NCBI GenBank assembly: GCA_030280995.1
Contig: JASXTE010000016.1
Location: forward strand, 19,635,501 to 19,699,500
Length of the DNA: 64,000 bases
Direction: 5' to 3'
DNA from: Hemileia vastatrix
Taxonomy: Eukaryota > Basidiomycota > Pucciniomycetes > Pucciniales > Zaghouaniaceae
In this document: piece after piece, positions 7,853-61,649 of the stretch
How positions within the stretch are numbered: the first letter of the stretch is position 1
Layout: each line of letters starts with the position of its first letter
Notes under the pieces: generated by a model
What the model was told of the DNA's origin: nothing
Databases searched by the model: none
The model's input: the letters and a program-made list of their open reading frames with translations, nothing else
Program-made: the position numbers and the translations under genes

Positions 7853-8459
7853 AAAAATACTCATCCTTTTATGGAGCTTCTCAAATATTGGATAGTGTAT
7901 TTTGAATTGATTGTATTGTCATCAAATTAAGTTGGTGAGTCCTTAACAGTTATTTGTTGAAAATTGATATCAAATTAATAGATTTTTGTCGGAGAATGCC
8001 TCCCCCTACTGCAGATAAATGTATTTATGTAAAAAAGCTTTTGATTTGATTTACATGAGAAATTAACTACTTTTCATGAATTTATAAAGCAGAAACACAT
8101 TAAGGGGTGTCAGTTCTGGCAAATCTGCACTTAACTTAAGTGCGGATTTCAAACCAAATCAGCACTTAATTTTTGAAAAAAGTCACTTATTTCAAAAATG
8201 GGTATCAGTTATGACCCCAAATCAGCACTTTTTTCCCGTTTTTTTTTTCACAACCACATGTTTGCCACAAAACATCCCTTTCTTTCTTACCCCACACCTG
8301 TCACATGTGAAACACTGACCTTCCTTGCTACCTACCCATCAATCCTTGGCGCACACCCCTTCCTGACATTTTCAACATTTTGACCAGGCATGTTTACATT
8401 ATTTTTTACTTATTTCTTCTACCTCTTAATCTTTTTTCTTGTTATGTGCCAGTTTCATA

Positions 8460-9061: not shown

Positions 9062-10249
9062 TGTCAGCCTAGATATCCCTAGGACTGAGTATTTCTTATG
9101 TTTAAAATAAGATAACCTTAAGTAAATTAAGCTTATATCTTAAAAATGAGGATAAAATAATAATATATATTATTATATTATATATATATATATATATATA
9201 ATTATTATTCTATTATATAAATTATAGTAGTTTAAATAGCTTATCCCTAGCCTAATAATACTTATTAAGGTGTTAATGGAGTCATAATATATTTATCTTA
9301 AGTGATATGAAGTATTTATTGACATACATAAGCTTATATGTATACATAAATCTCATATTCAGTGAAATATGCAGTATATTATGTATATTTAGGTATATAA
9401 GTGGGTTTTAGCCCCTTAATAGCCTATAAACTTTGTTTTTCTGCTTATTTTAGGTCATATGGACGAAATCAGTTGACTAACCATTCCTAAAGAAGCATAG
9501 ACATCTATATCAGGCGCATACACTCAGTTTGGACAACTTAATTTACTTCCTTGGATGGTTATCCACGGATTTATGGGTTGGAAGGTCATTTCTGGGTTAA
9601 TGTGGATGCTTGGGGATGCTATTGGGGGCTTGGACATTTTATTTGTTTCTTTTATATGCTTTGAGTTTCATTAAATCTCTTTTTGATTGCTTATTTTACC
9701 TGTTTCTTTATGGTATCCGCTTTTATCTGGATTTTCTATTTGTGGTATAGATCTGTGTTATCATTAATTGTGATGTAGGGTCCTTACTGGAGGTCTGGGT
9801 GTTGAATATGCTTGAAGTGGAAGCCATGGGGAGGTGATGGGCCCTTTTCAGTGCTTTAATTGCCAGGGATAGCAGTGACATCATCTGGATTGAAGGTCTG
9901 TGCACTCCAGTGGATTTGGGTATAAGTAAGGAGAGATTTTTATGGTTATTTATCATCATTAACTTACTAAAATTCAAAACAAACACTAAAATACGATTAT
10001 TAGCATTCAGAAATATATTGTAAAGCCATTATAAATTGATATTATCTTTATATAAGCTATAACTATATTTTATTCATCTATTTTCCACCACTAAGCACAC
10101 ATTTAAATCCAAGTATTGTGAGTTTTATTTGAGTATAACTATTTTATTAGTCTTCCCCTGAGGTTTAATCACTAAATCATTTTGAAATAAGTATTAGGAC
10201 CATAAATAAACACTATTATATCATACTTATATACTATACTATACTGACG
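9062..10249 (+). repeat. 5' LTR of element A
   Basis: Begins TGTCAGCCTAGATATCCC and ends TATACTGACG; the last base differs from the canonical TGACA of the 3' copy. It contains a TATA-like GTATATAAGTGG near 9392 and an (AT)n run near 9175-9205 whose length differs from the 3' LTR. Several scattered substitutions separate the two LTRs, so the insertion is not recent. Confidence 0.93.
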
Positions 10250-10758
10250 ATTGGGGGTCTTTCTTTATATTCTACTTATTATTTAGTATAAGCCTTGGGA
10301 AGTGATTTTTACTTTAGTACAGCTCAAAATAACCAAATATTTGGGTCTTCTCCATATTAGTGGGTCATCATAACTCAGTGATTGCGGAAAAGAACCATTA
10401 TAAAAAGTGTACTAATTTTTTATCATAAAAATTAAGTATTTACAGTAGTAACTGTACCCAATACAAACCCAATTTCACTTGGTATTTGGACACCAATATA
10501 ACACCCAATTAAATTGGTATTTGGTTAAAGCTTGGTAAGCTACTTATTCACCCTTATAAAGGTCTAGTTGAATTTATTACTATATTTTTAACAGATTTTT
10601 TTGAATTTTCTTATATTTTATTTAAATAAATAAAGATTTAAATTCAGGGTAAGCTCAAGTGCTTTTTTATTAGTAATAACATTGCTAATAACTTTTGTCT
10701 ACTAATTCCATAGAGTTTTTCCTTTCTGTAGATGTGATATATTGTCATTCTTAACAAT
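10250..10758 (+). other. Leader of element A between 5' LTR and gag
   Basis: About 510 bases of AT-rich sequence with no reading frame. The base after the LTR begins ATTGGGGGTC; a standard tRNA primer site starting TGG is offset by two bases at best, so the primer cannot be assigned. Confidence 0.6.
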
Positions 10759-13700
10759 ATGAGTGTTCCTCATGACAGTGTAAGTGAAAAGCCTGCTTAT
10801 AATACCAGGTCTAAAGCTAACAAAAACTATCCAGGACATAACCATGGAGGGTCAGCAATACCCCCAGACAGAAAACATGAGCATAGAGGAAAAGGACGGC
10901 CTTTTAAAAAAGATAACTATAAAAAAGACGTCTCCTCCTCTTCAGGATCAACTGTCCCACTTGGCCAAACAGGTTCTGAAGTTGGAAGAATCCAAATCAC
11001 TCATGTTCAAAGAGGTAGAGCAATTACAGAAAAATTGCAAGGTAGGGTTTCAGCAGATGAATCAGGCACTGGCAGAGCTAAAGGGAGGCCATCCAAGTCA
11101 GCCAAGTTAGCAGCCCCCTATCCCAGGCGGGTCAACTCACTCCCAGGAGAAAATCCTGGTAGAAAAATAGAAATGGGACTGGTTCCATCAACAATGGACC
11201 AGCCACAGCTGCAACAGGGATCCACCACCTCATCTGACTTCCTCAGTTCACCCTTACAAAGGAAAAAAGCGCCAAAAATCAGGACTGGCATCTATCCCAT
11301 GGTAAGTAGATTACCCTCTCAGATTGAACACAATACTGATAATTACAATATAGGTAATCCTATTGATGTTAAATCTGTGCAGAAAATAGAGGAGGATTTA
11401 AGAAATTTAGGTTTTAGAGTAGATACACCTGACTTGTCTTTTGTCCACTATAACAGTACTATTTATAATGATAATACAGTTAACCCTCAGTTGCTACCGC
11501 CTACTAGTGAGATGAGAAGTTCACAGGAGAGTGAGAGAATTGAAAAGGAAGACATGGAATATTTTAACAATAATCCAACTGTCTATAGAATTGTTTCAGC
11601 ATTGTGGAATAGAATGACTGATTGTGAGGAACAGACAGTTAAGCTCACTAGTGATACAATTACATCCTTGACATTAAACATTTCTCAATTAGCAACACGT
11701 AACAAAGAATTAGAGAAAGAGCATTTGTCTCTAACTCTTAGATATGATTCATTGATTAATAAATATAATGAACTTTCAAACAAATTCTGTGAGCTAGAAA
11801 AATTGTGTGAAACACATTTATTGAAAACTGAATCAAGAACTTAGTTATCATTTGCACAGACAAATCAATGTGTCTCTGAGTTGCTACAAAGATTAACTAA
11901 AGTTGAGATTGAAACTGCCAATCTACTAATGAACCAGGATAATCATAAGTACAATCAATATAATAATAATCCTTTCATTGGCAAAAGTGAATCTCATTCC
12001 TTCCCTATACCACCACAATTAAAACCATCTGGTGGTAGTGTCAAATCTGAAAATTTAAGTCACAAATCCATACAGGAAGAAATACAAGACCATTTATCAA
12101 AAGTGAATGAGTTGTTGAATTTACCTAAGATTAGTGAGATAAAATACAATCAGAAAAATTGGTCTAAGATAGATCAGTACCCAACTTATGATGGGGAAGC
12201 CAGCTCTGATTGGCAACATTTTATTCAAAGAATTGACAACTTGAAATTCTCATATAAGTTACCAGATGAAGAAATAACATCAAAATTAATTTCTTTATTT
12301 AATGATGTTGCTTTATTATGGTTTGAATCTGTATTGAGTGAGGGTAAATATTACTCTTGGGCTGAATGGAAACAACTTATTGAAAAACAATTTGGAGGTT
12401 CTAAATTCAGGCTTACTCAGCAGAGACTTTATGAGAAGACTAGGTATAATCCGTTGAATGGTGACAAACCTATAGTATTTTTAATGAATTTAAATAAAAT
12501 ATTAAAAGCCATTGAGCCTCATATGGATTTTAACTTATGGAAAGATAAGATAATATATAAATTACCTATATCTGTCAGAGTCATTGTTGTAGCTAGAACA
12601 TTAAATGTTACTGAATATTCTGACTTTATTAATATTTGAAATGAAATATTATTAAATCATAAGTATGAATCAAGGTATTCCACTTATAAAAAAAATGTTG
12701 AACCTGTAAAAATTCAGATTTTAAAAGCACTTCAGGAGAAGCAGAAAAAACCTACCGCACCTGTAGTACCTAAAAAGTATGGAACAAATACTTGTTATGA
12801 GTGTAACAAACCTTGGGTAAAAGGTCACAAATGTGAGAAAAATATAAATATTGTTGAAAATCAACGTGAATCTGAAACTGAAACTTAAAAAAGTAAAGAA
12901 TCAAGTGATTATGAAAGCAATATCTCATATAGTGATGAAAATGAAGTCTGTATGTTGGAAGATGATTTGTCCATCTTTGAAAATCCAATATTAAATATGG
13001 ACTCAAATGAATCTTTAATGAATTTTGAGGATGCTGAAGTCATTAAGTATATACAAGCTGATAACTTTAGAATGACACCTATCACGGTTCCAGCTATCAT
13101 TTCTGGTGAAAATGTTAATATAGTACTGGACACAGGAGCTGCTGGTTCTGTTGTGTCCATTAATACATTACAGAAAATTGAAAGTGAATATAAGTCTAAG
13201 CTTGAACCACTTCAAAGTAAAAATTAGAGAGGTTTTGTATCAGTGCTACACCCTATTGGTAGATACAAAGCTGCTGTTTTCTTTAAACATCAACATGGTT
13301 ATTTAAGAGTAACTTTTGACTTTGTAGTAATGGATAATACTAACTGTAGTAACTGTTTTATCATTGGAAATGATATTCTGACTAAATTTGGTGTGAAATT
13401 AGACCCTTCTAATAACAATTTTACAATTGGCATGAATGGTAAAAGGAAATTTAAAATAAATTCTTTTAACACAGTCTTACACATTGAGTCAGTAGCAAAT
13501 TCTCCGTGTAAAGGGAGAGAATCCAATGAGATGGAACTTCTGGAAACAGAAATTTCAAAAGCATCATTTGGCACTCAGATAAGTAAAGCTGAGAAAAATA
13601 ATATTTTGGAATTAATTGAAGCATTTCCAATGGCTTTTGCACATAGTAAAAATGAACTTGGCCTTGTAAAAGATCATGAAATGAAGATTAGTTTAACCTG

Positions 13701-16625
13701 TGATATGGATAATATTCCTGCTAGTCTTAAAAAGAAACCATACCCTGCTTTACCAATGAAGAGGAAAGACATAGAGGATAATATTAAGATGTTATTGAAA
13801 ATGAATATTCTTGAGAAGGTTGAAACTACACCAAAATATTGTGTAATATCACCAGTTCTGATTTCTTATGAACAAGATAAAGCAAGAATGTGCGGTGATT
13901 ATAGAGCATTAAATACATTTACAGTAGATGATATTTATCCCTTTCCAAGGATTTCCTCTATACATGCTACCCTTAAAGTTGCTAAGTATATAAGTTGCTG
14001 AGATGGAAATAAAGGGTACCATCAAATTCCTGTTGAAAAGAATTCACAGAAATTTTTGTTGATAACAACACACATGGGAATTTATAAATATGTCAGAATG
14101 CCATTTGGACCAAAAAATGCTCCATCAGTATTTCAGAAGTTAATAGATATAACATTCCATAATGAAATGATTGAAGGATGGTTAATCGTATACATTGATG
14201 ACATCATAGTGTTCTCTAAAACTTATGATGAACACTTAATCCATTTAAAGAAGGTATTTCAGAAAATGGATGAAATAAAAATGACCCTTGCATTAAAAGA
14301 ATGTAAATTTGGGTTTGAATATTTAAAAGTGCTTGGTCATATTGTAACTGGCTTACAAATATGTGTAGACCAAAATAAAGTAGCTGCAATAAAGAATATT
14401 GGCATTCCTCAAAATGTAAAGGATGTACAATCTTTTCTTGGAATGTGTGGTTATTATAGACAATATATAAAAAACTACCAATCAATTGCTGCACCATTGA
14501 CCACACTGATAAAGAAATCAGAAGCTTTCATTTGGAATAATAAAAGACAACAGGATTTTGATAAGTTGAAAGAATGTTTAATGACAGCTCCTATCTTGGG
14601 ATTACCAGATTTCCAATTACCTTTTTTATTATATACAGATGGAATTTTTATTGGTCTGGGTGCTGCTTTGCATCAAAAACAACTTATTGAAGAAAAAATG
14701 TCAGAAGTAGTAATCTGCTATATTTCACGTACTCTGAGAAGTAGTGAATTGAAATATGGCGCTACTCAACTTGAGTGTTTGGCAGTAGTATGGGCTCTTG
14801 AAAAGCTACATTATTACCTTGAAGACCAAAAATTTGAGTTAATAACTGACTGTAGTGCAGTTAAATCACTCTTAAACATGAAAACTCCTAATAGACACAT
14901 GTTTAGATGGCAATTAGCTGTACAAGAATACAGAGGACGGATGACTATTACACATAGAGCAGGAACCTTTCACTCTAATGTAGATCTGTTATATAGAGTA
15001 CCTCTGCCTAATAATGATGATAATCCTGCTTATGTTCCTGAGTCAGAGATTATTAACATTTATGGCATTTATATTGTAGATCTTGAGGATAAAATTATGC
15101 AATCAATTCTTGATAATTATGATTCAGATCCTGACTTGAGTAAACTCACTATGTTATTAAATGATCCATCTAATGCTTCAATGAAAGTTTTAATAAAAAC
15201 ATTACCAAATAAGTATAAAGAGGCATTAGAAAAAGGAAAATGTTCCATTGAGGATGGATTTATATATTACAGAAAAAAATTAAGTAATGTAATTGTGATT
15301 CCCCCTTCAATGAAGGAGTTAATGTTAAGTATATGTCATGATGATATATTAGCAGGTCATTTTGACTACCATAAAACATTAACCAGAGTAAAAAACACAG
15401 CTTGGTGGATTAACATGTCTGAGGATGTTCAGAAATATGTTGAAACATGTGATTCTTGTCAAAAATCTAAAAGATTAACAGGAAAAAGAGCTGGTTTATT
15501 ACAACAAATTGAGCAACCAAAAGCTCCATGGGAAATCATTAACATGGACTTTGTAACAGGTTTGCCAATAGCAGGGCATAAGAGTTATAACTCCTGCTGG
15601 GTAATTGTAGATAGATTTACAAAGATGTGTAAATTTATTCCTACCCACAAAGAGGTTTCTGCAAAGGACTTAGCTTTTTTATGGTGGACACAAATGTTAA
15701 ATACAGCAGGTTTCCCCAAAGAAATAGTTTCTGACAGAGATCCTAAATTTACTTCTGAGTTCTGGACGTCACTTATGGATGTTTCAGGGTGTCAATTAAA
15801 ACTTTCTACAGCACACCATCCACAAACTGATGGGCTAGCAGAAAGAATGATACAAACTTTAGAAAATATGATAAGAAGATATTGTGCTTTTGGTCTTAAT
15901 TTTAAAGACAATGACAAATTCACGCATGATTGGGTAACCCTTATCCCAGGTTTGGAATTTGCATACAATAGTACAGTACATTCTGTCACTGGTAAAAAGA
16001 CATTTGAGTTATGGTTGGGTTATGTACCTAATACCCCTGCTAAGACTCTAAATAAGTTACCTAGAGTGGATATCCATCCAGGTACTAAATCTTTTCTTCA
16101 GATGCAAGAGTTATGCAGAAAACATGCTCAAGAATGTATAAATAAGGTGTTTGAGTATGAAAAGAAAAGATGGGATAAAGCCCATAAAGAACAAATTTTC
16201 AAATAGGGTGATGAAGTCCTTATTTCAACACTAAATTTCAATTTAAATGGTAATGTTAAATTGAAGGATCCATTTATTGGACCATTTGTAGTTAAAAAGA
16301 TGTTTGGTAATAATGCTGTTGAGGTTATTCTATATGCACCATACGATGGAAAACATCCAGTATTTCCTATTTCTCTTATTAAGCCATACCATTCTAATAA
16401 ACTGCTCGGTTTCTAAGAAGATCAGGAAGGCATAAACAGCAACCTGAAGAAATATTTGAAAAGGCAGAAATTGAAAAGATACTTAAAAAGAGACACCTTA
16501 CTAAAGAAAAGGGAGTTGAGTATCTATTAAGATTTAAAAATAAAACAAGTGAATATGACCAGTGGATTCCAGAAAATGAAATCTCTGATCTTAAAAATCT
16601 CTTGAAAAACTTTAAATCAAAATAA
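10759..16625 (+). pseudogene. gag-pol of element A (Ty3/Gypsy, chromodomain)
   Basis: One reading frame runs from ATG 10759 through gag and pol, with in-frame stops at 11842, 12637, 12886, 13225, 13999 and 16204 and a frameshift near 16400. Visible in order: a capsid-like region (WSKIDQYPTYDGE to KLISLF, about 12160-12300), a zinc knuckle CYECNKPWVKGHKC (12793-12834), protease VLDTGAAGS (about 13126), reverse transcriptase with YIDD (14191), RNase H (LYTDGIF, where relative B has LYTDAS, then LECLAVVWALEKLHYY), integrase with a zinc-binding region and D/D/E residues (NMDF about 15543, SDRDPKF 15733, GLAERM 15831), and a C-terminal chromodomain (EYLLRFKNKTSEYDQWIP, about 16515-16570). At the 5' end, exon 1 (10759-10779), a 55-nt intron (10780-10834) and an exon in a second frame (10835-11301) match the spliced structure inferred for element B. 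Confidence 0.95.
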
Positions 16626-16730
16626 TACTGTTTATTCAGTATATGTATTATAAAAAATATTTTTTATTTTTCTATTTCACTCCTTACTTTTAATTAAAAT
16701 GTCTTAACATTTTTTTATTGTTTTTTTTTT

Positions 16731-16742
16731 GGGGTGAGGGAG
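16731..16742 (+). other. Polypurine tract of element A
   Basis: GGGGTGAGGGAG directly abuts the 3' LTR. This is the position of the plus-strand primer, and the same GAGTGAGGGAG-type tract occurs in elements B and C. Confidence 0.85.
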
Positions 16743-17921
16743 TGTCAGCCTAGACATCCCTAGGACTGAGTATTTCTTATGCTTAAAATAAGATAAACTT
16801 AAGTAAATTAAGCTTATATCTTAAAAATAAGGTTAAAATAATAATATATATTATTTTATTATATATATATATAATTATTATTCTATTATATAAATTATAG
16901 TAGTTCAAATAGCTTATCCCTAGCCTAATAATACTTATTAAGGTGCTAATGGAGTCATAATATACTTATCTTAAGTGATATGAAGTATTTATTGACATAC
17001 ATAAGCTTATATGTATACATAAATCTCATATTCAGTGAAATATGCAGTATATTATGTATATTTAGGTATATAAGTGGTTTTTAGCCCCTTAATGGCCTAT
17101 AACCTTTGTTTTTCTGCTTATTTTAGGTCATATGGGCTAAATCAGTGGACTAACAACGCCTACAGAAGCATAGACATCTATATCAGGTGCATACACTCAG
17201 TTTGGACAACTTAATTCACTTCCTTGGATGGTTATTCATGGATTTATGGGTTGGAAGGTCATTTCTGGGTTAATGTGGATGCTTGGGGATGTTATTGGGG
17301 GCTTGGACATTTTATTTTTTTCCTTTATATGCTTTGGGTTTTATTAAATCTCTTTTTGATTGCTTATTTTACCTGTTTCTTTATGGTATCCACTTTTATC
17401 TAGATTTTCTATTTGTGGTATAGATCAGTGTTATCATTAATTGTGATGTAGGGTCCTTACTGAAGGTCTGGTTGTTGAATCTTCTTGATGTGGACGCCAT
17501 GGGGAGGTGATGGGCCCTCAAAGTGCTGTGATTTCAGGGGATAGCAGTGACATCATCTGGATTGAAGGTCTGTGCACTCCAGTGGATTTGGGTATAAGTA
17601 AGGAGGGATTTTGACAGTTATTTATCATCATTCACTTACTAAAATTCAAAAAAAACACTACAATACAATTATTAGCATTCAGAAATATATTTTAAAGCCA
17701 TTATAAAATGATATTATCTTTATATAAGCTATAACTATATTTTATTCATCTATTTTCCACCACTAAGCACGCATTTAAATCCAAGTATTGTGAGTTTTAT
17801 TTGAGTATAACTATTTTATTAGTCTTCCCCTGAGGTTTAATCACTAAATCATTTATCAATAAGTAGCAGGACCATAAATAAACACTACTTTATCATACTT
17901 ATATACTAGACTATACTGACA
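16743..17921 (+). repeat. 3' LTR of element A
   Basis: TGTCAGCCTAGACATCCC to TATACTGACA, followed by the duplicated target CTAAC (17922-17926). 1179 bases against 1188 in the 5' copy, mainly from (AT)n length. Confidence 0.95.
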
Positions 17922-17926
17922 CTAAC

Positions 17927-18638
17927 CATAGTTCAGCTGAAGATGATCCCGACTATCAAGTAGAACAATTATATTGCAGCAGATCTGAATCCTCAGAGGC
18001 CCAAAATTTAAATGTATGTTTACTTTTTCATTTTTCTTCAATTCTTCTCTAAATTTCTCTTTCTTTCTAGTCTCCTCCTACTCAAACTGAAACTCCATTA
18101 AACAATCTTGATTCTGGAAATGTGAATCCCGCTTTAGAAGTTGCTTTAGATGAACTTCCTGAAGCCTCTTGTTCAAACTCCAAACTAAAGAGACAACCCT
18201 CAACTTCAATGAACTTGAACCATATATTAAAACATGGTAATACTTCAACAAGCTCATTTGGCTCCCTTGAGGAATATTTTGAAAAAAAAGATATAAGTAA
18301 GATTCATTTACTATATATCTTAATCATTAACTCATTTATTTATTTATTTCAATTTAATTTTCTTAGAAAAATCAACTATTGCAAAAAATGCCCTTGACTT
18401 TGAGAAGATGAAGTTTGATCATATGCTAAGGAAAGATCAGCAAGCCTTAGATTTGGAAGAAAAAAAATTTGAGGAAGAGAAGATGGAAAGAGTAAATGAC
18501 TGTCAATTTCAAAGAGAAATGGCTACTTGTGAATTGAAAAAACAAGAGAGTTTTAAAAAAAAAGATTTCATTATGGAATGTGTAAAAAATGGCCAATCTT
18601 ATGAGGACATTAAAAAATTAATTGACCTTTTCAATTGA
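17927..18638 (+). pseudogene. SANT/Myb-like protein of the Harbinger-like element, 3' part
   Basis: Continuation of the gene cut at 9061. Removing element A and one CTAAC copy gives in-frame joining at codon 17927 (HSSAEDDPDYQVEQLY). Two introns are readable: 18014-18070 (GTATGT to CTAG, phase 0) and 18297-18366 (GTAAGA to TTAG, phase 1). The last exon (from 18367) is highly charged, KMKFDHMLRKDQQALDLEEK onward, and probably forms a coiled coil. It ends with KKDFIMECVKNGQSYEDIKK and a stop at 18636-18638. The same C-terminal signature is kept in copy 2 (49613-49843). This half has no stop of its own, so the Gypsy insertion, with the small indel near 8490, is what breaks the gene. Confidence 0.75.
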
Positions 18639-18739
18639 TAAATTGTTTTTCTATTCAATTTAATTTTGTTTGATTTCTTTTTGGTAATATTTTCTTATAT
18701 TCTGACTTATAAAAGGTCTTGAATATAGTACATTATTTT

Positions 18740-18885
18740 TGACAAATTTTTGAAAATATCATACAATTTTTCTATCTTTAAATTCAAGTCAATAAGTTTG
18801 CTTATACTTTGATTTTGACAAAAATTTGAAAATATAATAAAAATTTTCTATCTTTACTTTCAAGTCAATAAGTTTGCTTATCTAA
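18740..18885. repeat. Tandem duplication (two units of about 75 bp)
   Basis: Two successive copies of a unit containing TTGACAAA(A/T)TTTTGAAAATAT and TTCAAGTCAATAAGTTTGCT. They lie just 3' of the SANT-like gene. Confidence 0.75.
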
Positions 18886-18917
18886 ATACTTCTAAGTCAA
18901 TAAAATTCAATATCTCT

Positions 18918-19145
18918 TTTGAAAATTTGGCAATACCTCCCCTTGAATTTTATTGAAACAAGGGGTGGGTACCACCAAATTTTTCTAAGTCATCAATTTC
19001 ACATGTCAGATTTAAAAAATTGGCAATACCCTCCCCTTGAATTTTATTGAAACAAGGGGTGGGTACCACCAAATTTTTCTAAGTCATCAATTTCACATGT
19101 CACATTTAAAAAATTGGCAATACCCTCCCCTGAATTTTATTGAAG
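18918..19145. repeat. Minisatellite, about 93-bp unit, 2.5 copies
   Basis: Units begin near 18927, 19020 and 19114 with TTGGCAATACC and contain CCCCTTGAATTTTATTGAA and GGGGTGGGTACCACC. The same minisatellite, more copies, occupies the matching position in Harbinger-like copy 2 (49998-50430), between the convergent SANT-like and TET-like genes. Confidence 0.9.
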
Positions 19146-19442
19146 TAAAGGTTGAAAGTCATCAAAATTTAATATAATTACATAAATTAATTAATATATA
19201 AATAAGATATTTCAAATTTAGTACTTTTAAAGTAATGAAAATTCCTCATGCCGAAATGCAGATCAAGTCTAGAAACTAGGTTTGGGACTTTCCACAGGTA
19301 TAGGCTAGAGGAACCCCATGAAACAAATTAATATTATCATGATTACCTTTTATAAAACACAGGGTTGTTGGCCCATTACTTTAATTTCATAAATTGAAAT
19401 ATCATATTTATTTATTAAAAATTTATGGAAGAATATTAAATA

Positions 19443-20638
19443 TTTGGTAACTCTACGAATACCCATACTTTTTAGATCTACCTAAAGAATTTTTAAATTT
19501 ATTACCTTTTTCTTCTTTATTTAACTTGTTTATTTGTTGAATTAACTTTTGACTGATCTGGACAGAGCAACCAAAATGCGTGAAGTCTTGACAAGATTCC
19601 AAACCTGGAGGAGCCTTTGTGGTTTGTTGATTATTGTAAGAAGAGTTCCAAACTGTTTTGATGATTCCATTTCCTAATCCAAAATCAATTATACATCTAT
19701 GATCCGGGAAATATAATACATATCCTTTAATTCTTGTAGGTGACAGAATAGGTTGTCCAGTGATAGGATTAATATGTGAAAATTCCATAAGTGATGTAAT
19801 TGGCATCATTTGAGTTGGTGTGAATTCGGTTATGAAATCCAGAATGAGTGATTATAAAATTTGAAAACATTAAATAATAACTGCTAATATCTTCCCATTC
19901 AGAGTTTCACCAATTTGGTATTCCAAGTCTCGTAGCAACTTCATGATTTGTTTCAAAAGCTTTATTACAGAGTTTTTTAAGTCGAAGAGCAAGAAATGAA
20001 TTAAATGAAGGTAAAGTATTCCATTTTCAAAAATCATTATCTAATTCAGCTTTAGATAAAGATCTAAGTAAAGAATATATGCCTATTTGAATTAAATTCA
20101 GTAAAAGGATATTAAAAAATCCAGAAAATTTTTTAAACATACCAAAAGAAAAACCTTTATCAAATCCTGGTCTCCATCCAATACCAATCATGATTCCACC
20201 CAACAAATTCTTATTCCTTAAAGGTAAGCAAACCAAAGCCATTTGATAGAGTGTTATGATGAGATCGCAGAGTTGATTGAATGATTCATCTTTTAAACCA
20301 TTAAAAGAATGGTTTTTGTAAATAAATTGAGGTTTGAAAGTATCATTAATAACAGATTTAACTTCATCACCTCCAGTTTCAGTTAAATAATGTATATTTT
20401 CAGGTAACTTTTTCAGATATTGTTTTTTTTTCAACTTTAGTTTTATAGTACTTGATTTTTTAATTATGGCCAAATATTTTATCCAAGTGATTTTTTTTTT
20501 TAAATTTCTTTTATTTTGATACTGTTCATTTTTTGTCAATGTTTTAGATGATGATTGAAAAGAAGTTGAATTTGAAGATGATAATGAAGTTAAAGAAGAT
20601 GAGAGTGAGGTAAGTGGTGAATCTGAAGTTAAAGACAT
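19443..20638 (-). pseudogene. TET/JBP-like 2OG-Fe(II) dioxygenase, transposon-borne (copy 1, broken)
   Basis: A predicted 2-oxoglutarate and Fe(II)-dependent oxygenase of the TET-like type. Characterised TET/JBP enzymes oxidise the methyl group of 5-methylcytosine or thymine in DNA. Residues 1-203 (20638-20027) start Ser-rich and include GGIMIGIGWRPGFDKG. A TGA at 20027-20029 interrupts the frame, which continues as KWNTLPSFNSFLALRLKK and ITHSGFHNRIH. A 2-nt deletion near 19760 then shifts the frame, and the rest is 19809-19453 (HINPITGQP, DHRCIIDFGLGNGIIK, THFGCS). The double-stranded beta-helix motif HxD reads H-T-N here, and the distal His is Gln (NNQQTT, against DNHQTT in copy 2), so two metal ligands are lost. 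It is inactive, but it supplies the N-terminal half that copy 2 lacks. It lies tail-to-tail with the SANT-like gene. Confidence 0.7.
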
Positions 20639-20789
20639 GTATTTTTCTACTTAAAAATTTGTTACTTTTCAAACACCCAAAATTATAAATTTAAAAAAAA
20701 CTCAGTTAATTTTAATTAAAAAAAATCCTTAAAAGACAAATAAGAGTTTTTTTATTTCACCTGAACTTGATGAATATTTTTTTTTAATT

Positions 20790-22215
20790 TCTGAAAAAAA
20801 AGAGGAGGTGGAGGTGGTGATGTTAGTGGCGAGAGGAGGAGGAGGTGGTGGTGGTGGTGGCAAGAGGAAGTGGAGGTGGAGGTGGAGGTGGCGAGAGGAG
20901 GTGGAGGTGGAAATGGAGATGGAGATGGTGGTGACGAGAGGAGGAGGTGGTGGTGGTGTTGGTGGAGGTGGAGGTGGAGATAGAGATGGAGATGGTGGTG
21001 GCGAGAGGTGGAGGTGGAGATGGAGATGGTGGTGGAGGTGGAGGTGGAGGTGGAGGTGGCGAGAGGAGGAGGTGGTGGAGATGGAGATGGAGATGGTGGT
21101 GGTGGAAAGAGGTGGTGGAGATGGAGGCAAGAGGAAGTGGAGGTGGAGGTGGAGGTGTAGATGGAGATGGAGATGGTGGTGGCAAGAGGTGGAGGTGGAG
21201 ATGGAGATGGTGGTGGCAAGAGGAGGTGGAGGTGGTGATGTTGGTGGTGAGAGGAGGAGGTGGTGGAGATGGAGATGGTGGTGGTGGCGAGAGGTGGAGG
21301 TGGAGATGGAGATGGTGGTGGCGAGAGGTGGAGGTGGAGATGGAGATGGTGGTGGCAAGAGGAGGTGGTGGTGGCAAGAGGAGGGGGAGGTAGAGGTGGA
21401 GAAGGAGATGGTGGTGGCGAGAGGTGGAGGTGGAGATGGAGATGGTGGTGGCGAGAGGAGGAGGTGGTGGAGATGGAGATGGTGGTGGTGGCGAGAGGTG
21501 GAGGTGGAGATGGAGATAGTGGTGGCGAGAGGAGGTGGTGGAAAGAGGAGGGGGATGTGGAGGTGGAGGTGGTGGTGAGAGGTGGAGGTGGAGGTAGAGA
21601 TGGAGATGGTGGTGGCAAGAGGAGGTGGAGGTGGAGGCCTCCTCTTGCCACCATCTCCATCTCCACCTCCACCTCTTGCCACCACAATCTCCATCTCCAT
21701 CTCCACCTCTACCTCCCCCTCCTCTTTCCACCACCATCTCTATCTCCATTTCAACCTCCACCTCCACCACCACCATCTCCATCTCCACCACCTCCTCCTC
21801 TTACCACCAGCATCACCACCTCCACCTCCACCTCCTCCTGCCACAACCACCTCCTCTCGCCACCACCACCATCTCCATCTCCACCACCTCCTCCTCTCGC
21901 CACCTCCACCTCCTCTTGCCACCACCACCACCACCTCCACCTCCTCTTGCCACCACCACCACCACCACCTCCTCCTCCTCCTCTCGCCACCACCATCTCC
22001 ATCTTCACCACCTCCTCTCGCCATCACTATCTCTATCTCCACCGCCATCACCTCCTCTTGACTCCACCTCTACCTCCTCTTGCCACCACCACCACCACCT
22101 CCTCTCGCCACCACCATCTTCATCTCCACCCCTTTCGCCACCACCATCTCCATCTCCACCTCCACCTCCATCACAATCTCCAATTGCCACCTCCCCCTCC
22201 TCCACTTACTACCAT
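20790..22215. repeat. GC-rich purine/pyrimidine minisatellite arranged as an inverted repeat
   Basis: From 20790 to about 21637 the + strand is built from GGTGGAGATGGAGATGGTGG and GGCGAGAGG words. At about 21638 it flips to the complement (CCTCCTCTTGCCACCATCTC) and continues to about 22215. The junction is GGTGGCAAGAGGAGG, a short spacer, then CCTCCTCTTGCCACC, a perfect 15-bp stem. Triplet periodicity leaves long open frames on both strands (Gly/Arg/Trp on one side, Pro/Ser/His on the other). These are products of composition, not genes. GC content contrasts sharply with the flanks. Confidence 0.93.
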
Positions 22216-22728
22216 TGCCACCTTCAATCAAAAAGAAATTATGAGTATCAAGGGGGAACTGAAGTGACAGTAAATAAAACTATGTAAACAGATAATTAAG
22301 TTTTTTTTCTGTAAATATTCCTGAGATTTTTATTGATTTTTCTTTAGCTAAAGATTTCAATTGCAATGAGAAAATTGTATTTATTAATGTTTCGTTTGAA
22401 TAACCTGGTGTTAACATGAATCCTTATTAAAGGCTATGTTGTACGTGAAAGAATAAGGATAAAGAAAAAGATAAAAATAAAAAAGAGTCAAGCAGAATGA
22501 AAGGGATGTACAGGGACAGTAATTGCTGTCACAAGATATCTTAATTGGTCCTTAGTAATTTTCAAGGCCAATTTTTGGCTTGCAATTGGCTGTTGCAGGA
22601 CAGCCTGCAACACCACTTTCCCACATAGTGTTACAGCAAATTCAAAAACAAAATAAATATGCCAAAAAAATTACTATTCTCAGTGAATAAAACATGCAAA
22701 TTGATCATTTGAAGAGAATAAAAAAAAT
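22216..22728. other. Non-coding spacer 3' of the transposase pseudogene
   Basis: AT-rich, no gene seen. A near-palindromic GTTGCAGGACAGCCTGCAAC lies at about 22592-22611. Confidence 0.6.
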
Positions 22729-23994
22729 TTAAAATTGTGTTGAAAAATGTTGGAGTGTTATTGGAAGAATTTTTACCCTTATACTAGTTGATTGAGAAAT
22801 AAAAGTGTTGGATATAGTCAGAGGTGAATCAACTTGTTCATCTTCATACAGCTCTAACCATTGATCTTTGAGGTCAGCAAGTAGGTTATGAAGTATAGTG
22901 CAACACAGAATCCATTTGATTACCACCTCCATTTCAGATTTATTTCTAAGAGGACTTCTTAATTCCCTTAAACTAGAAAAATGGCCTTTCAAGATTCCAA
23001 TAGAATGTTCAATAAGGACTCTTGACTTTGCCAAATGATTGTTGAACTTGGCATTTTGACTGTCTACTGAAGCTGCTCCCCCAAAATCAGGAAGTACATA
23101 CTTTCCATTCACATAAGCAGAATCTGCAAGAAGATACAGATCTTCATCAAAGAATTTTTCAGGTTCATTTGAAATTTGCATTCTTTGGAAGACGTAGGAG
23201 TCATGACATGAGCCAGGATAGCCAGCAAAGAATGATATAAATTTTTTGTTTATGTCACATATAAGCTGAACGGAAATTGAATATCTATAAAGAAGATATA
23301 TTTGTTTGTGTTAGTTTCAAAGACAATGAAAGGAGTTAAAAATAATCTACCTCTTTTTATGGTCAAATTAATTGTTTCCACCTTGAGCAGGTTTCTGCCT
23401 CAAAGGAATAGTAGTACCATCAACAAAACCAATACATCCTGGGAAGCCCTCTGCTTGCATAACCTGAGATGATTCAAGTCGCTCTTATTTTGTTGGCCAG
23501 GTGAGAAGTTGAGATTCCAAGGAGTTGATGGCAGTGATACATCATTTTGTATAAGTGTTAACTCAACCATACCCTAAATCAAAGACATTTTCTAAACGTT
23601 TCAAAGCGGCTCCATTACCATTTGAACCCAAACGACATAGTGTGATGGCCAATTGAATTGAAGGATGTTGTTGTTCTTTTTGAGAATTATTGTGACATAT
23701 GTGATGATCCTGAATAAGCTCAATCAATTTAAGGAAAAATTCCTGAGAAGTCCTGAACAGCTGTCTAAAACTGGGTGTAGATAGGTTAAGAAGTGTTTGG
23801 ATGGTGTACTTGGGGGTATGAAGTACTTGAGGCTTTCTGGGAAGAAGGTAACGTTTCAAGGCCATTTTTGATAAAAAGACAAAATCTTCTTCTAGATCAG
23901 AATCAGAATCGGAATCAGAGTCCAAGAGAAGTTCAAGAGCCATGAAAGTCATTGCTTTATGTAATTTATCACGATTTGAAAGTGAGGAAGGCAT
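22729..23994 (-). pseudogene. PIF/Harbinger-type DDE transposase (copy 1, broken)
   Basis: Predicted endonuclease-type transposase. Reading on the - strand: start MPSSLSNRDKLHKAM (23994), an acidic stretch, a conserved N-terminal region (LFRTSQEFFLKLIELI, LAITLCRLGSNGNGAA), then the DDE nuclease fold with GFVDGTTIPL (first Asp, about 23425), PGSCHDSYVFQRM (about 23200), LLADSAYVNGKY (second Asp, about 23120), VLIEHSIGILKGHFSSL (Glu, about 23010) and CCTILHNLLADLKD. In-frame stops occur near 23561, 23545, 23490 and 23387. A 66-nt intron (23285-23350, GTAGAT to ATAG) separates the first-Asp exon from the rest. It is paralogous to 52592-53853. All three catalytic acids are still present despite the stops. 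Confidence 0.85.
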
Positions 23995-24195
23995 AACTCT
24001 TATATGATATGATATGAAGATGTTAATGATGTACGATGTTTTGAGTTAAGAAGTATTATGCTGCGGAGTGCTGCGTATGAATGGGATGATGCTGAAAAAT
24101 CAGTGAAATGGGACTTGATGGTGAAATCAGCACTTTTGGTTGAGAAAGTGCGGATTTGAGTGAAATAAGTGACATTTTCAAATGGAAATTCTAAC

Positions 24196-25155: not shown

Positions 25156-25160
25156 AGATA

Positions 25161-49205: not shown

Positions 49206-49612
49206 TATTAGGGGGTATCAATGTTCAGGGATCAGCAATTAAATTAATTGCGGATAAAAATCCTTATACCCCAATTATCTTCCGCAATTATTTTTGCTAA
49301 TAATTGGGTTATTAGACACTTTACGTGTCAATGTTCACCTCTTATCCAACATTTTTTTACTCAATTTTTCATAACCACATCTTGGACAACCTTCTGTCAT
49401 AACCACATCTTGACCTACTTTCTGCCATAACCACATCTTGGACTATTCCCTGTATATGCCCTCTACCTTGCTGCACACTTCCATTCTCATCCCATCCTGT
49501 TCATTCTATCCACTCAGAATTTCTCCCCATTTCATCTATTTGATTCTGCTCCTTTTCATCTCGCTATCACATCTGCTTGTTTCTGCTCCTTTTCATCTTC
49601 ATTTATAATAAC

Positions 49613-49843
49613 ATGCCTCATCATCCTAGATCCTCTCAAAGGCAGCCATCACCCAGTTTTTCTTCAATTCCCACTACTTCCTCTTTCCCCTGCTCACTCA
49701 AACATCAAAACCTATTAGAGCAGATAAAATATAAGTTTGATCATGAAGAAAATTCCAAAAAGAAAGATTTCTTGATAGAATGTGTTAAAGCTTATAAATC
49801 TGTTGAGGAAATTGAACGTTTAAAGAAATTGTTGGATGACTAG
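49613..49843 (+). CDS. Shortened SANT-family accessory protein lacking the SANT region
   Basis: 76 codons, MPHHPRSSQRQPSPSF to LKKLLDD. The N-terminus resembles the start of the copy-1 protein (MPPRQSKSQK). The C-terminus matches its last exon: IKYKFDH against MKFDH, and KKDFLIECVKAYKSVEEIE against KKDFIMECVKNGQSYEDIK. The whole SANT-like region and much of the coiled coil are missing, an internal deletion relative to 8460-18638, yet the frame is open. It could be a chance remnant or a truncated product that keeps the C-terminal interaction segment. Confidence 0.55.
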   Translation: MPHHPRSSQRQPSPSFSSIPTTSSFPCSLKHQNLLEQIKYKFDHEENSKKKDFLIECVKAYKSVEEIERLKKLLDD

Positions 49844-49997
49844 TTTGTTTTATTTCTCTCACACTTCAACTGTTCATACTTATTTGTACATAAAATTTCC
49901 AATAATTTCCTTTATTTCATTACTCTATCTATCATTACTTGAATTTTTGTATTTTAATGTTAAATATTCTTTTTTAAATAAAATTTTCATGTCTCCT

Positions 49998-50430
49998 TTG
50001 AAAATTTGACAATCCCCCACCCCTGTATTTTTTTGAAGTAAGGGGTGGGTATCACAAAAATTCTTTCATGTCATGAATCTTGAAAGTCTTATATGAAACT
50101 TTGGCTTTACTACCCCCTGCATTTTACCGGTATCCCGAAAATTCTTGCATGTCAAGAATTTCACAAGTCTTATAAGAAATTTTGGCAAAACCCCCCATGG
50201 ATTTTATTGAAGTAAGGGACGGGTATCACCAAAAAATTTTCACCAAAATATTTACAAGTCAAAAAAATTCTATATCTGTTTTAAAAAATTGGCAATACTC
50301 TCCCCTGCATTTTATTGAAGCAAGGGGTGGGTATCACCAAAATTTTTCTAAGTCATTAATTTCACATTTCAGATTTGAAAATTTGGCAATACCCCCCCCC
50401 CCCCTGCATTATATTGAATTAAGGGGTGGA
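49998..50430. repeat. Minisatellite between SANT-like and TET-like genes, about 5 units
   Basis: Units of roughly 88-103 bp, each with TTTGGCAATACCCCCC-like and AAGGGGTGGGTATCACC words. Homologous to 18918-19145 in copy 1. A run of 11 C lies near 50393-50403. Confidence 0.9.
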
Positions 50431-50729
50431 AGTCATCTAAATTTAATATAATTACATAAATTATTAAATAAATATCTAATATATATCAATTTCCCTAGTT
50501 TAAAGTAATGATAATTCCTCAAGCCAAAATGCAGACCAAGTCTAGAAACAAAAGTTTGGGACTTTCCACAGGTATAGGCAAGAAGAACCCCATGAAACAA
50601 ATAAATGTTATCATGATTACCCTTTATACGACCAAAGGTCATTGGCTCATCACATTACTTGAGCTAATTGATATATAAAAAATATTTATTAAAAATTTAT
50701 GAAAAAATATAAAATTTTTGATGACAACT

Positions 50730-51347
50730 CTAATCCCCATACTTTTTGGATCTAGATAAAGTTTTTTCAAATTGATTAACTTTACCTTCTTTCTTTGCCT
50801 TATTGATTCTTTGAATAAAATTATGACTGATTTGAAATGAGCAACCAAAATGTGTTAAATCTTGACAGGATTCCAAACCAGGAGGTGCTTTGGTCGTTTG
50901 ATGATTATCCGTAGAAGAATTCCAAATAGTTTTGATGATACCATTTCCCAAACCAAAATCAATGATGCACCGGTGGTCTGGAGAATATAAACCATGTCCT
51001 TTGATTTTAGCTGGAGATGGTATTGGGTGGCCAGTTATTGGATTGATATATGAGAATATACCAAAAGTAAGAAAATTGGAATAATTCCTATCAATATGAA
51101 TCCTATTGTGAAATCCAGAATGAGTGATAATAACATTAGAAAATAAAAGATATTCGTGGCTAATATCTTCCCATTCGAAGTCACACCAATTCAGTATTTC
51201 AACTTTGGTTTCAAGTTCATCATTTTTTTCAAATGCTTTATTACAGTGCTTTTTGAGTCGAAGAGCAAGAAAAGAGTTAAAGGAAGGTAGGGTGTCCCAT
51301 AAGCAAAAATCTTCATCTTTTTGAGCTTTAGTGATATTCTTGAGCAA
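50730..51347 (-). CDS. TET/JBP-like 2OG-Fe(II) dioxygenase, transposon-borne (copy 2, N-terminally truncated)
   Basis: 205-codon frame. Known TET/JBP enzymes hydroxylate 5-methylpyrimidines in DNA using Fe(II) and 2-oxoglutarate. The metal site is visible: GFHNRIHIDRN carries HxD (His-Ile-Asp), and the distal His lies in STDNHQTTKAPP. Between them are GIFSYINPITGHP, GHGLYSPDHRC and IIDFGLGNGIIKTIW; after them comes THFGCSFQIS, a pattern I recognise from rust TET-like oxygenases. The matching copy-1 protein is about 200 residues longer at the N-terminus. Here, upstream of the Met, the frame shows only about 15 more matching residues (IGIYLL) and then a TGA, and the rest is replaced by a tandem repeat. 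The catalytic half is therefore intact, but the gene is probably truncated. Confidence 0.72.
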   Translation of the reverse strand: MLKNITKAQKDEDFCLWDTLPSFNSFLALRLKKHCNKAFEKNDELETKVEILNWCDFEWEDISHEYLLFSNVIITHSGFHNRIHIDRNYSNFLTFGIFSYINPITGHPIPSPAKIKGHGLYSPDHRCIIDFGLGNGIIKTIWNSSTDNHQTTKAPPGLESCQDLTHFGCSFQISHNFIQRINKAKKEGKVNQFEKTLSRSKKYGD

Positions 51348-51444
51348 TAAATATATGCCTATATAATTAAAATGCCTAGATAATAATCATATAAGAGTTT
51401 CAGAATCCTTATCCTCTAAATATGCAATATAAAAATGTGAAATA

Positions 51445-51780
51445 AGACAAGTGAAATTTGGAAAAAAGGCTCAACTTCAAAGGTCAAAATCTCAGCAACC
51501 ACTGAACCTAATTCAAACCTGTTTGTGGGAAATAAAAGATATTCTTTAGTAGAATCTTCAGTTAAAGGACATGTGATTTAAATAAACCTAACCCTAATTT
51601 GTTACATAAAAAAATGAAATAAAAATTTAAATTGGGAAAAAAAAGGCTCAACTTTAACAGTCAATATCTCAGCAACCACTGAATCAAATTCAAATCTGTT
51701 TGTGGGAAATGAAAGGTAGCCTTCAGGAGAATCTTCAGTAAAAAGAAAATTAGATTTGAATAAACCTAACCCTAATTCCG
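51445..51780. repeat. Tandem duplication, two units of about 172 bp
   Basis: Both units contain AAAAAAGGCTCAACTT, ATCTCAGCAACCACTGAA, CTGTTTGTGGGAAAT and AAACCTAACCCTAATT. They occupy the place where the TET-like N-terminus would be expected. Confidence 0.88.
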
Positions 51781-52591
51781 AGTCTGATTTTCAAAATTTT
51801 ACAAAAACTTGAAAAGTGGTAATGAAGATGAGATCAAAAGGAGTTTTATAAGTTCACTGTTATCCAGATAAGAGTCATACATATATTTAAGTATGAAGTT
51901 TTCATAAAAGGAATGAGATATCATATAGGCATGAAAAAAAGGAGATGAAACTTACCTTGATTGAAAAGTAGGAAAAATAGAGTGAGAAAGATTGATGTTG
52001 GAATTGTGGGGAAATTGAATATGGAGTAAGTGAAATGCATAAAGAATGTGCAATGTATGTGTTTCAATGAAATGGAGCCAAAAAAAAGTGAAATAAGGGA
52101 AAGGAGGGATAATGACCACGCCAAGGAGGAATGAAGAGTAGGGTGATGGAGCTAAAAAAGAAAGTAAAGAGGGAGAGAAAAAAAAGGTTAATTATACCAT
52201 TGAAATCCAAAATAACCACTTACAAAAAAAATTTAGATAAAAAAATAAAATAAACAGAAAAAAACAAAAAAAAATATAATTAGTAATCAAAAAATCAAAA
52301 AAAAGATTAAAATGACTTACCTGGAGTGATGAGATGACAAAATGAATGAAACCAAATTTTTTGAGGGATGTTGGAGGAGAATAGGAAAAGGATATGAGAG
52401 ATGAATAAAAAAAAATCACTGACAAAATATGCGATTTCATGTTGAGCTGGTGAAAGAAAACCAATGAACCAACCAAAAAAAAGATCTTCACCATAAATTC
52501 CAAAAAAAAAAATGAATATGCAACAAACCAAAATACCAAACCAAGTGAATGAAGTACACAAAGAGGACATTTGGAGAGTAAAAAAAATAAT
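51781..52591. other. Non-coding stretch between TET-like and transposase genes
   Basis: A/T-rich. The open frame 52192-52737 (-) is Phe/Leu/Ser-rich, overlaps the transposase end and has no similarity to copy 1; not a gene. Confidence 0.6.
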
Positions 52592-53853
52592 TTAAAAGGG
52601 TGGTGAAGAGAAATGTTGGAGAGTAATAGGCATAATGATAGAGTGTATGCCAGTTGAATGAATGTTTTGTGATTCAAGGGAGGAAAGAGCCGGTGCTGGT
52701 TCAGGATCCTCTTCTTCATAAAGATCATTCCACTCATCCTTTAAATCAGCTAGGATATTGTGGAGTATAATGCAAGTCATGATCCAATGATTTGCAGTTT
52801 TGATCTCCAATTTTTTTTGAAATTGGATTCTGAGCTCCCAAAGACTAGAAAATTGTCCCTTTAAAATACCTGTAGCATGTTCAATTCATACTTTGATTGG
52901 TAAAGGTGATAATTAAATTTAGTTTTGGGTTCATTTTCTAAGGTTGCACCACGGAAAGCAGGTATAATATACTTCCCACTTGGATATGCTGAGTCTGCAA
53001 GGAGGTACTGAGATTCGTCAAAGTATGAGTCAGGGGTTTGAGAAATCCTCATTCTTTGGAAGACGGAAGAGTCATGACATGAGCCAGGGCAGCCACTATG
53101 AAAAGCAATAAATTTTTTATTGACATTGCATACAAGTTGAACAACAATAGAGTATCTAGAAAGAAGATAAAAAGTTAGTTTATGAAGGATGAGAAATTGG
53201 AGAAGATTTTGAAGAAACCTTTTTTTGCAATCAAAATAATGGTTGCCATCATGAGCAGACTTTTGACTCAAAGGTATAGTTGTGCCATCAACAAATCCTA
53301 CACAGCCAGGGAAACCTTCATCTTGCATTACTTGAGAGGATTCAAGTCGCTGTTCTGGAGTTGGCCAATAAAGTGCTTGACACTTGAGGGAAAGGATAGA
53401 AATCATACAGGGCTTGGTGTATAATATCACAGTACCATATCCTATGTTAAAGATATTATCCAAATGTCTTACAGAAGCACAGTTTCCATTTGAGCCAAAG
53501 AGACATAGTGCAACAGCAAGTTGGATGGCAGGATTACGCTGTTTGTTATGGGAATTGTTATGAAATATAGGATGATCGGAGATGAGTTGATAAAGTTTGA
53601 AGAAAGAATCGGAAGAAGTTCTAAAAAGTTGGGTGAAGTTTAAATGAGGAATGTTGAGAATGGAGGCCAGATCATATCGGGGATCATGATAAAGATTTGG
53701 CCCCCTGGCGATGATGTAACACTTTTTGGAAAGAAAACACATATAAGCTAAAGCATCTTCCATATCAGAGTCAGATTTATAGTAAAGAACTAAAAGAAAA
53801 GTAATAGCATTCATTGTTGAGTGAAGTAGCTTCCTAGTAGAGAGGTGTTTCAT
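52592..53853 (-). pseudogene. PIF/Harbinger-type DDE transposase (copy 2)
   Basis: Best preserved transposase in the window. The start is probably MKHLSTRKLL (53853), matching copy 1, although the frame is open to 53970. N-terminal region: LFRTSSDSFFKLYQLI and LAVALCLFGSNGNCAS. DDE fold: GFVDGTTIPL (Asp, about 53280), HSGCPGSCHDSSVFQRM, LLADSAYPSGKY (Asp, about 52990). A 1-nt frameshift near 52890 and a TGA just before IEHATGILKGQFSSL (the catalytic Glu) break the protein; it then resumes to MTCIILHNILADLKDEW and ends at 52592. The intron found in copy 1 corresponds to 53156-53218 (63 nt, GTTTCT to CTAG), which by chance is free of stops and divisible by three. Confidence 0.85.
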
Positions 53854-54118
53854 TGTTGCTGGTGGAAGGGTTATGTGATGAGGGAAGTGGGAATTCACCA
53901 CCAAATGTGCAGTTGGGGTGTTTAGATATAAAAAAAAGTTAAGTGTTCCCCACCAAAAATTAAGTAGCATAGAGTGAGGAGAGACTTAAGGATGGTATCA
54001 GCAATTATGAGTCATGTGACTTTCTTGCAAATCCATCATGGATGAGATGAGTTTGGGATCAGGAATTAGGAATGGAAGTTGGGGTATAAGAGGTGGGATA
54101 ATGCATAATTGTGGATTC

Positions 54119-54150
54119 CTTACCCACTAGCCCCGGGGCTAGTGGATAAG
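54119..54150. other. 32-bp near-perfect palindrome near the right end of the Harbinger-like element
   Basis: Centred on CCCCGGGG; left arm CTTACCCACTAGCCCC, right arm matching at 15 of 16 positions. GC-rich in an AT-rich setting. It could be a transposase or host-factor binding site, or simply a hairpin. Confidence 0.85.
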
Positions 54151-54282
54151 AATCTTCGCAATTAATAATGTCTGATCCCAGAAAAAAAAATTCCTGTTCC
54201 CTGATTGCGGATCCCTGAACATTGATACCCCCTATTAAGATAAGTTCTTGCACAGTATTTTACTCTAAAATTTGACCTTTAC

Positions 54283-60312: not shown

Positions 60313-60384
60313 GTATAATTTAATTCTCCGTAGTTCTCATTCTTTGCACTACTACGTCCTTTTAGGTGTTTTTAAAGTTTTAAC

Positions 60385-61572: not shown

Positions 61573-61649
61573 TAGATAGTTTACTTGTGTGCAAAGCAAA
61601 CTATCTTATCTCTCCCAGTGCATAGAACCTCCATGTCTTAAGGACTGGA

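Follow-up and report, generated by a model that had tools for sequence, protein, structure and literature searches.

Harbinger-type transposons that carry a TET-like oxygenase gene are known from rust fungi. In the portion of the report available to us (Kojima, Dec 2025, PMC12730594), 15 TET+ Harbinger families with TA duplications are assigned to a lineage named PHISTA, with P. graminis, P. striiformis, P. triticina, P. coronata, P. hordei and A. psidii as hosts. There, the PHISTA oxygenase is proposed to permit escape from methylation-based silencing, the third protein of the element is described as having no Myb/SANT, and the PU-type TET genes of rusts are said to occur in seven transposon lineages and to have moved often from one to another. 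Here, two diverged transposon copies were analyzed in a 64,000-nt stretch of the Hemileia vastatrix genome (GenBank assembly GCA_030280995.1, contig JASXTE010000016.1, positions 19,635,501 to 19,699,500; hereafter the window, whose first letter is position 1), namely the decayed copy 2 (49211..54232; 5,022 bp, subfamily B) and the older, interrupted copy 1 (8103..24195). The element is probably a high-copy PIF/Harbinger-type transposon of the PHISTA kind with an inherited and constrained oxygenase that would counter methylation. New here are the copy number, the three alternative middle modules and the location of the codon for the catalytic Asp at a CpG/TCG hotspot.

The two enzymes encoded by copy 2 were identified by Pfam profile searches (cut-offs in bits: PF20515, 27; DDE_Tnp_4 (PF13359), 24.8; PF13837, 27). 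The 218-codon open frame 50733-51386 (- strand) matches PF20515, the Tet-like 2OG-Fe(II) oxygenase superfamily (2OG, 2-oxoglutarate), with 84.3 bits (1.5e-23). The transposase frame 52864-53985 (-) matches DDE_Tnp_4 with 47 bits, and a second one, 52595-52885 (-), stays under the cut-off with 19.6 bits. The inverted arms of copy 2 (49206-49239 and 54204-54237; 34 nt, shared flank included) are 94% complementary. A first-pass annotation, made from the letters of the window, had described a Harbinger-like transposon with inverted repeats, a TET-like middle gene and one gene order in both copies, and these results largely bear it out: copies 1 and 2 share the order (+) third gene, minisatellite, (-) oxygenase and (-) transposase. 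In copy 1, the DDE_Tnp_4 match (85.8 bits) is above the cut-off and the PF20515 matches on two pieces (23.2 and 14.3 bits) are both under it. Among the relatives, L016 also exceeds the DDE_Tnp_4 cut-off, and L016 (9.2e-31) and L015 exceed that of PF20515.

The oxygenase is inherited with the element and is a property of the family. It was followed through 18 long elements, nine of them selected by the spacing of their terminal inverted repeats (TIRs; L009-L016, L064) and nine from the list of transposase matches (L057-L063, L065, L066; for L063, an oxygenase match had been listed beforehand). One of them, L012, contains none of the genes. Among the 17 gene-bearing elements, 13 carry oxygenase exon 2 and nine carry both exons; exon 2 is present in seven of the eight gene-bearing elements chosen by TIR spacing. 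Most of the elements compared carry the gene; its absence from most other copies is what the first-pass annotation would have taken as a sign of a chance insertion. In all 13 carriers of exon 2, transposase and oxygenase share one strand, with the oxygenase on the downstream side, and in 12 of them the third gene is found on the opposite strand in the same order; in L057, no third gene was present within the stretch fetched. Protein searches yielded, among the matches listed, 13 of 110 transposase matches with one of 150 oxygenase matches at a distance of ≤9 kb, with identical order and strand in all 13.

Further copies were found throughout the 748 Mb of host genome searched. The 11-base end motif occurs at 17,252 sites (8,682 + 8,570) and the reversed pattern at 84 (42 + 42), an excess that is therefore not due to chance. 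Markers of 24 bases, counted with ≤2 mismatches, gave 3,933 sites (1,938 + 1,995) for oxygenase exon 2, 3,434 sites (1,717 + 1,717) for the transposase and 2,792 sites (1,389 + 1,403) for cassette B, the segment specific to one of the modules described below. The reversed-pattern controls gave 0 sites for each. When chosen, the markers detected 11/11 (exon 2), 14/14 (transposase) and 4/4 (B) of the carriers tested; L064, with a truncated transposase, is without the transposase marker. Marker pairs were counted on contig C2: for 27 of its 66 exact transposase markers, the same strand carries an exact oxygenase marker at a downstream distance of 1.5-6 kb, with 0.37 expected; 17 of these pairs show the spacing of module A and ten that of module B. 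For three exact transposase markers on C2, an exact oxygenase marker lies within 9 kb in another arrangement. The pair counts on C2 are lower bounds because exact marker places only were used.

The substitution pattern shows long-term purifying selection on both oxygenase and transposase across the split of the two window families. Ratios of nonsynonymous to synonymous substitution (dN/dS) were obtained from Nei-Gojobori counts with a custom script, and codons with stops or gaps were dropped. For oxygenase exon 2, comparison of copy 1 with ten family-2 copies gave a dN/dS of 0.135-0.169 (dS 0.97-1.14), and with the diverged L013 a value of 0.225; for the transposase, seven comparisons with copy 1 gave 0.16-0.27, all of these comparisons sharing ancestry and thus not being independent. 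Within the family, the oxygenase values are 0.23-0.36 for L013 against other family-2 copies and 0.35-1.27 for the five young pairs listed, and transposase values of young pairs range from 0.38 to 1.71 (L013 included). The higher values of the young pairs are expected for decaying copies. The gene trees of oxygenase and transposase agree on L016/L061 and L009/L010 and differ elsewhere, e.g. for L011. In copy 1, the oxygenase dS is lower than the transposase dS, and in L013 it is higher. The dS of L013 to the family is ~0.5 for the oxygenase and ~0.2 for the transposase. The excess in L013 suggests that oxygenases were exchanged between lineages, and gene exchange could explain the dS mismatch of both copy 1 and L013.

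The elements share their ends, transposase and third gene and differ in the stretch between transposase and minisatellite, for which three alternative modules were found. Module A contains both oxygenase exons (L009, L010, L013, L016, L057, L058, L061, L063, L065), module B contains exon 2 alone, preceded by another segment (L011, L015, L062, L064), and module C has no oxygenase (L014, L059, L060, L066, the last placed here by marker only). These module ratios, like the Asp/Asn ratios given below, apply to the fetched sample. In module A of L058, the gene opens with a stretch rich in Ser and then basic residues, and the last part of exon 1 ahead of the intron reads ...GWRPGFVKGYSLG. Breakpoints are nearly identical inside B and inside C (L014, L059, L060). 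The replacement DNA of module C is ~99% identical among L014, L059 and L060 (rearranged in L059); these elements look as if they had been amplified recently.

Cassette B is 96.8-98.0% identical among window copy 2, L011, L015 and L062, with values of 97.6-98.0% for copy 2 against the other three. This near-identity, despite the grouping of the copy 2 transposase with older copies in the gene tree, suggests exchange between element lineages. On C2, 30 of 95 exact B markers adjoin an exact oxygenase marker, so some B copies may lack exon 2. All four B copies examined contain a putative leader, open and hydrophobic, of 28 codons with a GTAAGT donor at its end. Three of the four have a match to a TATAG acceptor motif, and splicing would join the leader in frame with exon 2. 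The leader resembles a signal peptide (copy 2, L011, L015, L062). It may be a captured host exon, and the product of module B may be half an oxygenase fused to the leader.

The elements bear a marked mutation footprint. C->T changes were scored against the column majority in 29 loci of the transposase region (L028-L056) and were found at 129 of 1,720 CpG sites (0.075) versus 189 of 23,382 sites elsewhere (0.0081), with the highest rate at TCG (46/319, 0.144). TCG hypermutation is cited as a pattern of Puccinia and Microbotryum in the available part of PMC12730594, and that of PMC12774611 reports methylation of CpG with deamination in Austropuccinia psidii, whose genome measures about 1 Gb. The footprint indicates that the elements are, or were, targets of a process that an oxidase would counter, and it makes a role of the oxygenase against methylation plausible. 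Besides a DDE transposase and a third protein whose fold is uncertain, the element encodes a TET-like 2OG-Fe(II) dioxygenase of the PU type. This enzyme would oxidise 5-methylcytosine on or near the element DNA and would thereby counter methylation-dependent silencing and deamination mutation. Many copies would lose the enzyme, some when the middle module is exchanged and others through a CpG transition at the codon of the iron-binding Asp, and enzyme-less copies may rely on oxygenase from other copies.

Several observations weigh against this reading. The oxidase does not abolish the CpG footprint, which is strong in spite of the thousands of oxygenase markers. The CpG observed/expected ratio gives no clear advantage of oxidase-bearing over oxidase-less copies, with 0.333 in L058 and 0.358 in L016 (both A), 0.294 in L062 (B), and 0.351 in L014 and 0.282 in L060 (both C), in a small sample that includes flanks and is unmatched for age; copy 2 has a ratio of 0.22, the window as a whole one of 0.229 and the Gypsy element nested in copy 1 one of 0.138. 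Transposase frames of 454 codons are found in the oxygenase-less elements L014, L059, L060 and L066 (for the last three, the entries list one stop, at an unstated place, inside most matches), so not every copy needed its own oxygenase. On their own, the first-exon pieces of L016 and L013 matched no Pfam family, and a sequence search of the oxygenase against solved structures returned nothing relevant (ferritin and DinJ at E 0.94-1.6). Structure models were unusable, with a mean pLDDT (predicted local distance difference test) of 36.4 for the third protein and 32.6 for the oxygenase exon. The transposase dS values between copy 1 and the other copies (1.5-1.85) are near saturation. Finally, the metal-binding motif reads HxN in seven of 15 copies (L061, L015, L062, L009, L010, L057 and window copy 1).

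The other eight copies retain HxD (L016, L058, L011, L013, L063, L064, L065 and window copy 2), and we infer from the TET family that Asp is ancestral at this iron-ligand position. In six of the Asp copies, the codon context is ATC|GAT, a TCG site; in copy 2 and L013, the Asp codon is preceded by ATT, so the CpG is lost there. The Asn context is ATC AAT in six family-2 copies and ACC AAC in copy 1. All seven Asn copies can be read as G->A at CpG, six of them at TCG. The downstream ligand is kept as His in copy 2 and is Gln in copy 1. Since Asn in each of the seven copies is explicable as a CpG transition, the pattern hints at an arms race between host and transposon. In about half of the copies compared, the active site looks disabled by a kind of mutation that is linked to methylation and that the enzyme may have evolved to resist. 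A stronger form of this idea would place the arms race in one gene: methylation and deamination by the host at CpG/TCG would repeatedly disable the oxidase through its ATC|GAT codon, disabled or oxidase-less elements (modules B and C) would persist in number by parasitising copies that supply the enzyme in trans, and modules would be swapped between element lineages by recombination. We put this forward tentatively, as a possibility that we would not expect to hold in full.

It is highly improbable that unrelated genes came to lie beside the transposon by chance. The decay of copy 2 and the breakage of copy 1 would fit such an origin, but thousands of markers occur genome-wide in fixed relative order and exon 2 belongs to 13 of 17 elements. 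For the family, a chance association was rejected on the marker counts, the fixed order and the 27 pairs on C2 versus 0.37 expected. An oxygenase that was captured once and hitch-hikes as passive cargo, without helping transposition, is an unlikely explanation. The 454-codon transposase frames in C elements lacking the oxygenase, the Asn at the metal ligand in seven of 15 copies and the presence of cassette B, which replaces exon 1, at 2,792 marker sites all agree with it. Cargo of this kind is harder to reconcile with constraint on the oxygenase that, across the family split, is no weaker than that on the transposase, and with exon-2 markers as many as transposase markers; in addition, about three quarters of the best 150 exon-2 matches (95-100% identical to L016) list no internal stop.

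The oxygenase might also act on another base or in another role, such as a CMD1-like reaction, thymine oxidation or the marking of ends for the transposase. In favor of this, copies that reach the respective position have THFG (THFR in L013) at what we take to be the site of the 2OG-binding Arg of TET enzymes. The assignment of PF20515 as a Tet-like family, the presence of HxD...H in intact copies and the CpG mutation signature on the elements speak against another activity, to which we give a low probability. Kojima allows for it, in the available part of the report, and lists CMD1 as one of the closest relatives with a solved structure (PMC12730594). An inherited and constrained oxygenase that would counter methylation remains the preferred reading.

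Ends and target site were read from 18 insertions on contig C2 that were fetched by the spacing of GGGGGTATCAA ends alone. TA is found directly outside both ends in 15 of the 18; L010, L012 and L020 deviate on one side (for L012, the outermost right end was taken). A 5-bp duplication, read by eye, fits four of the 18. The TATTA duplication proposed in the first-pass annotation was therefore rejected and replaced by TA. Because the fetched insertions show TA, the TATTA match in the window reflects a target preference around the TA duplication. Ten of the 18 insertions (L017-L026) are miniature inverted-repeat transposable elements of 192-448 bp with GGGGGTATCAA ends.

The extent of copy 2 is based on its inverted repeats, its TA flanks and an alignment to L058, a 7.4-kb relative. 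The left TIR (49211..49239, +) begins with GGGGGTATCAATGTTCAGG, the same end as at the fetched copies, and the right TIR is located at 54204..54232 (-). The TA duplication is found at 49209..49210 and 54233..54234. The DDE_Tnp_4 (PIF/Harbinger) transposase (52592..53985, -) changes frame near 52870. Cassette B (51374..52153, -) stands in place of oxygenase exon 1 and the linker, so that copy 2 is without its exon 1; it holds a diverged direct repeat with a spacing of 177 and a possible leader exon (51956..52040, -; 28 hydrophobic codons, donor GTAAGT). Oxygenase exon 2 (50730..51358, -; PF20515) is open, shows an acceptor motif, and keeps HID and the downstream His. A minisatellite with a spacing of ~80-108 bp (50019..50440, repeat search) separates the convergent third gene and oxygenase; Tandem Repeats Finder gave no entry for this region. 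The third gene is represented by a remnant (49613..49843, +, inside the open reading frame 49544-49843; tblastn and blastn against relatives), in which ~28 N-terminal codons are fused to the C-terminal tail via an internal deletion that removed the putative SANT part. The inverted repeats of copy 2, which had been reported to enclose all genes, thus enclose oxygenase and transposase and a mere remnant of the third gene. Given this decay, copy 2 does not look autonomous.

Copy 1 represents an older, diverged family (DDE ~51% identical) and is split by a Gypsy element. Its right TIR was not found; the best match in 24001-26000 has four mismatches in 11. The N-terminal part of the third gene (8453..9061, +) is broken off by the nested Gypsy long terminal repeat (LTR) retrotransposon (9062..17921, +), which is foreign to the element, has CTAAC on both flanks and encodes reverse transcriptase (RT), RNase H and integrase on the piece 14002-16203. 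The minisatellite (18890..19144; period 94, Tandem Repeats Finder) is followed by the oxygenase with exons 1 + 2 (19453..20650, -), whose exon 2 contains stops and a frameshift and has HTN and Gln at the ligand positions, and by the DDE_Tnp_4 transposase (22729..24045, -) with a broken frame. In both families, the third gene and the oxygenase converge on a minisatellite of ~94 bp, whose unit holds GGGTGGGTATCA / GGGTGGGTACCA, which resembles the TIR tip; the minisatellite is perhaps a transposase binding array. Copy 1 also includes a large GGAGGT / CCACCT microsatellite with an internal strand switch (20804-22200). A 1.8-kb array of the 8-mer TTTTTATA is located at 6009-7852 (230 copies, 98% matches). 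The window sequence is AT-rich and Gypsy-rich, with Gypsy/Ty3-type LTR retrotransposons or remnants at 346-819, 9062-17921, 27036-29792, 39766-42445 and 60376-63380; these show RT and integrase parts, and a Chromo domain in one. Together with the PU-type oxygenase and the TCG footprint, this composition points to a host of the rust type.

The SANT-family label given to the third protein is tentative: PF13837 matched all three N-terminal parts scanned, but below threshold, with 15.7, 17.5 and 17.6 bits versus the cut-off of 27. By sequence, the third protein matched nothing relevant among solved structures (one chain at E 1.4) and gave noise only against NCBIfam. The transposase gave a weak IS5 match only against NCBIfam (25.1 bits versus a cut-off of 140). 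No match to phage records was found.

These results extend the recently published idea of oxidase-carrying transposons to a genome in which the DNA-oxidase gene has thousands of marker sites. Oxidase-bearing and oxidase-less versions of one transposon coexist in this genome, and the claim that oxidases protect transposons from methylation thereby becomes directly testable. The interest of the system lies in this scale, in the coexisting oxidase-less versions and in a catalytic Asp codon that sits on a CpG/TCG hotspot.

Judged by architecture and target-site duplication (TSD), the window element is probably of the PHISTA kind. As in the PHISTA families described in the available part of PMC12730594, a Harbinger-type DDE transposase, a TET/JBP-type oxygenase and a third protein lie inside TIRs flanked by a TA TSD, and the TCG-type mutation found here is cited there for Pucciniomycotina. 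The element differs in its host, which is outside the six reported, in its thousands of marker sites, in its three alternative middle modules and in the sub-threshold Myb-like match of its third protein. The capture of an oxygenase by a Harbinger element, proposed in the first-pass annotation, had already been published with the same architecture; a first capture was rejected and the element appears to be a new member of PHISTA. The independent capture assumed there is doubtful because PU-type TET genes are described in the same source as transferring often between seven transposon lineages.

Nuwa and canonical PIF/Harbinger elements, with their two genes for a DDE transposase and a Myb/SANT protein, likewise combine a DDE_Tnp_4 transposase with a second protein, which is possibly SANT-like here, but they have a 3-bp TSD in contrast to the 2-bp TSD of the window family and are without the extra oxygenase gene. 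The TET+ elements of the Dileera/Kyakuja/Zisupton (KDZ) type share a transposon-borne TET/JBP-type oxygenase; they belong to another transposase superfamily and have a 7-8 bp TSD (PMC12730594, available part), and neither a KDZ-type transposase nor such a TSD was found in the window family. The TET/JBP dioxygenases CcTET, NgTET1 and mammalian TET, to which the oxygenase has no sequence match at the level of solved structures, resemble it in the Tet-like 2OG-Fe(II) family assignment and in HxD...H, a likeness known here from the sequence profile.

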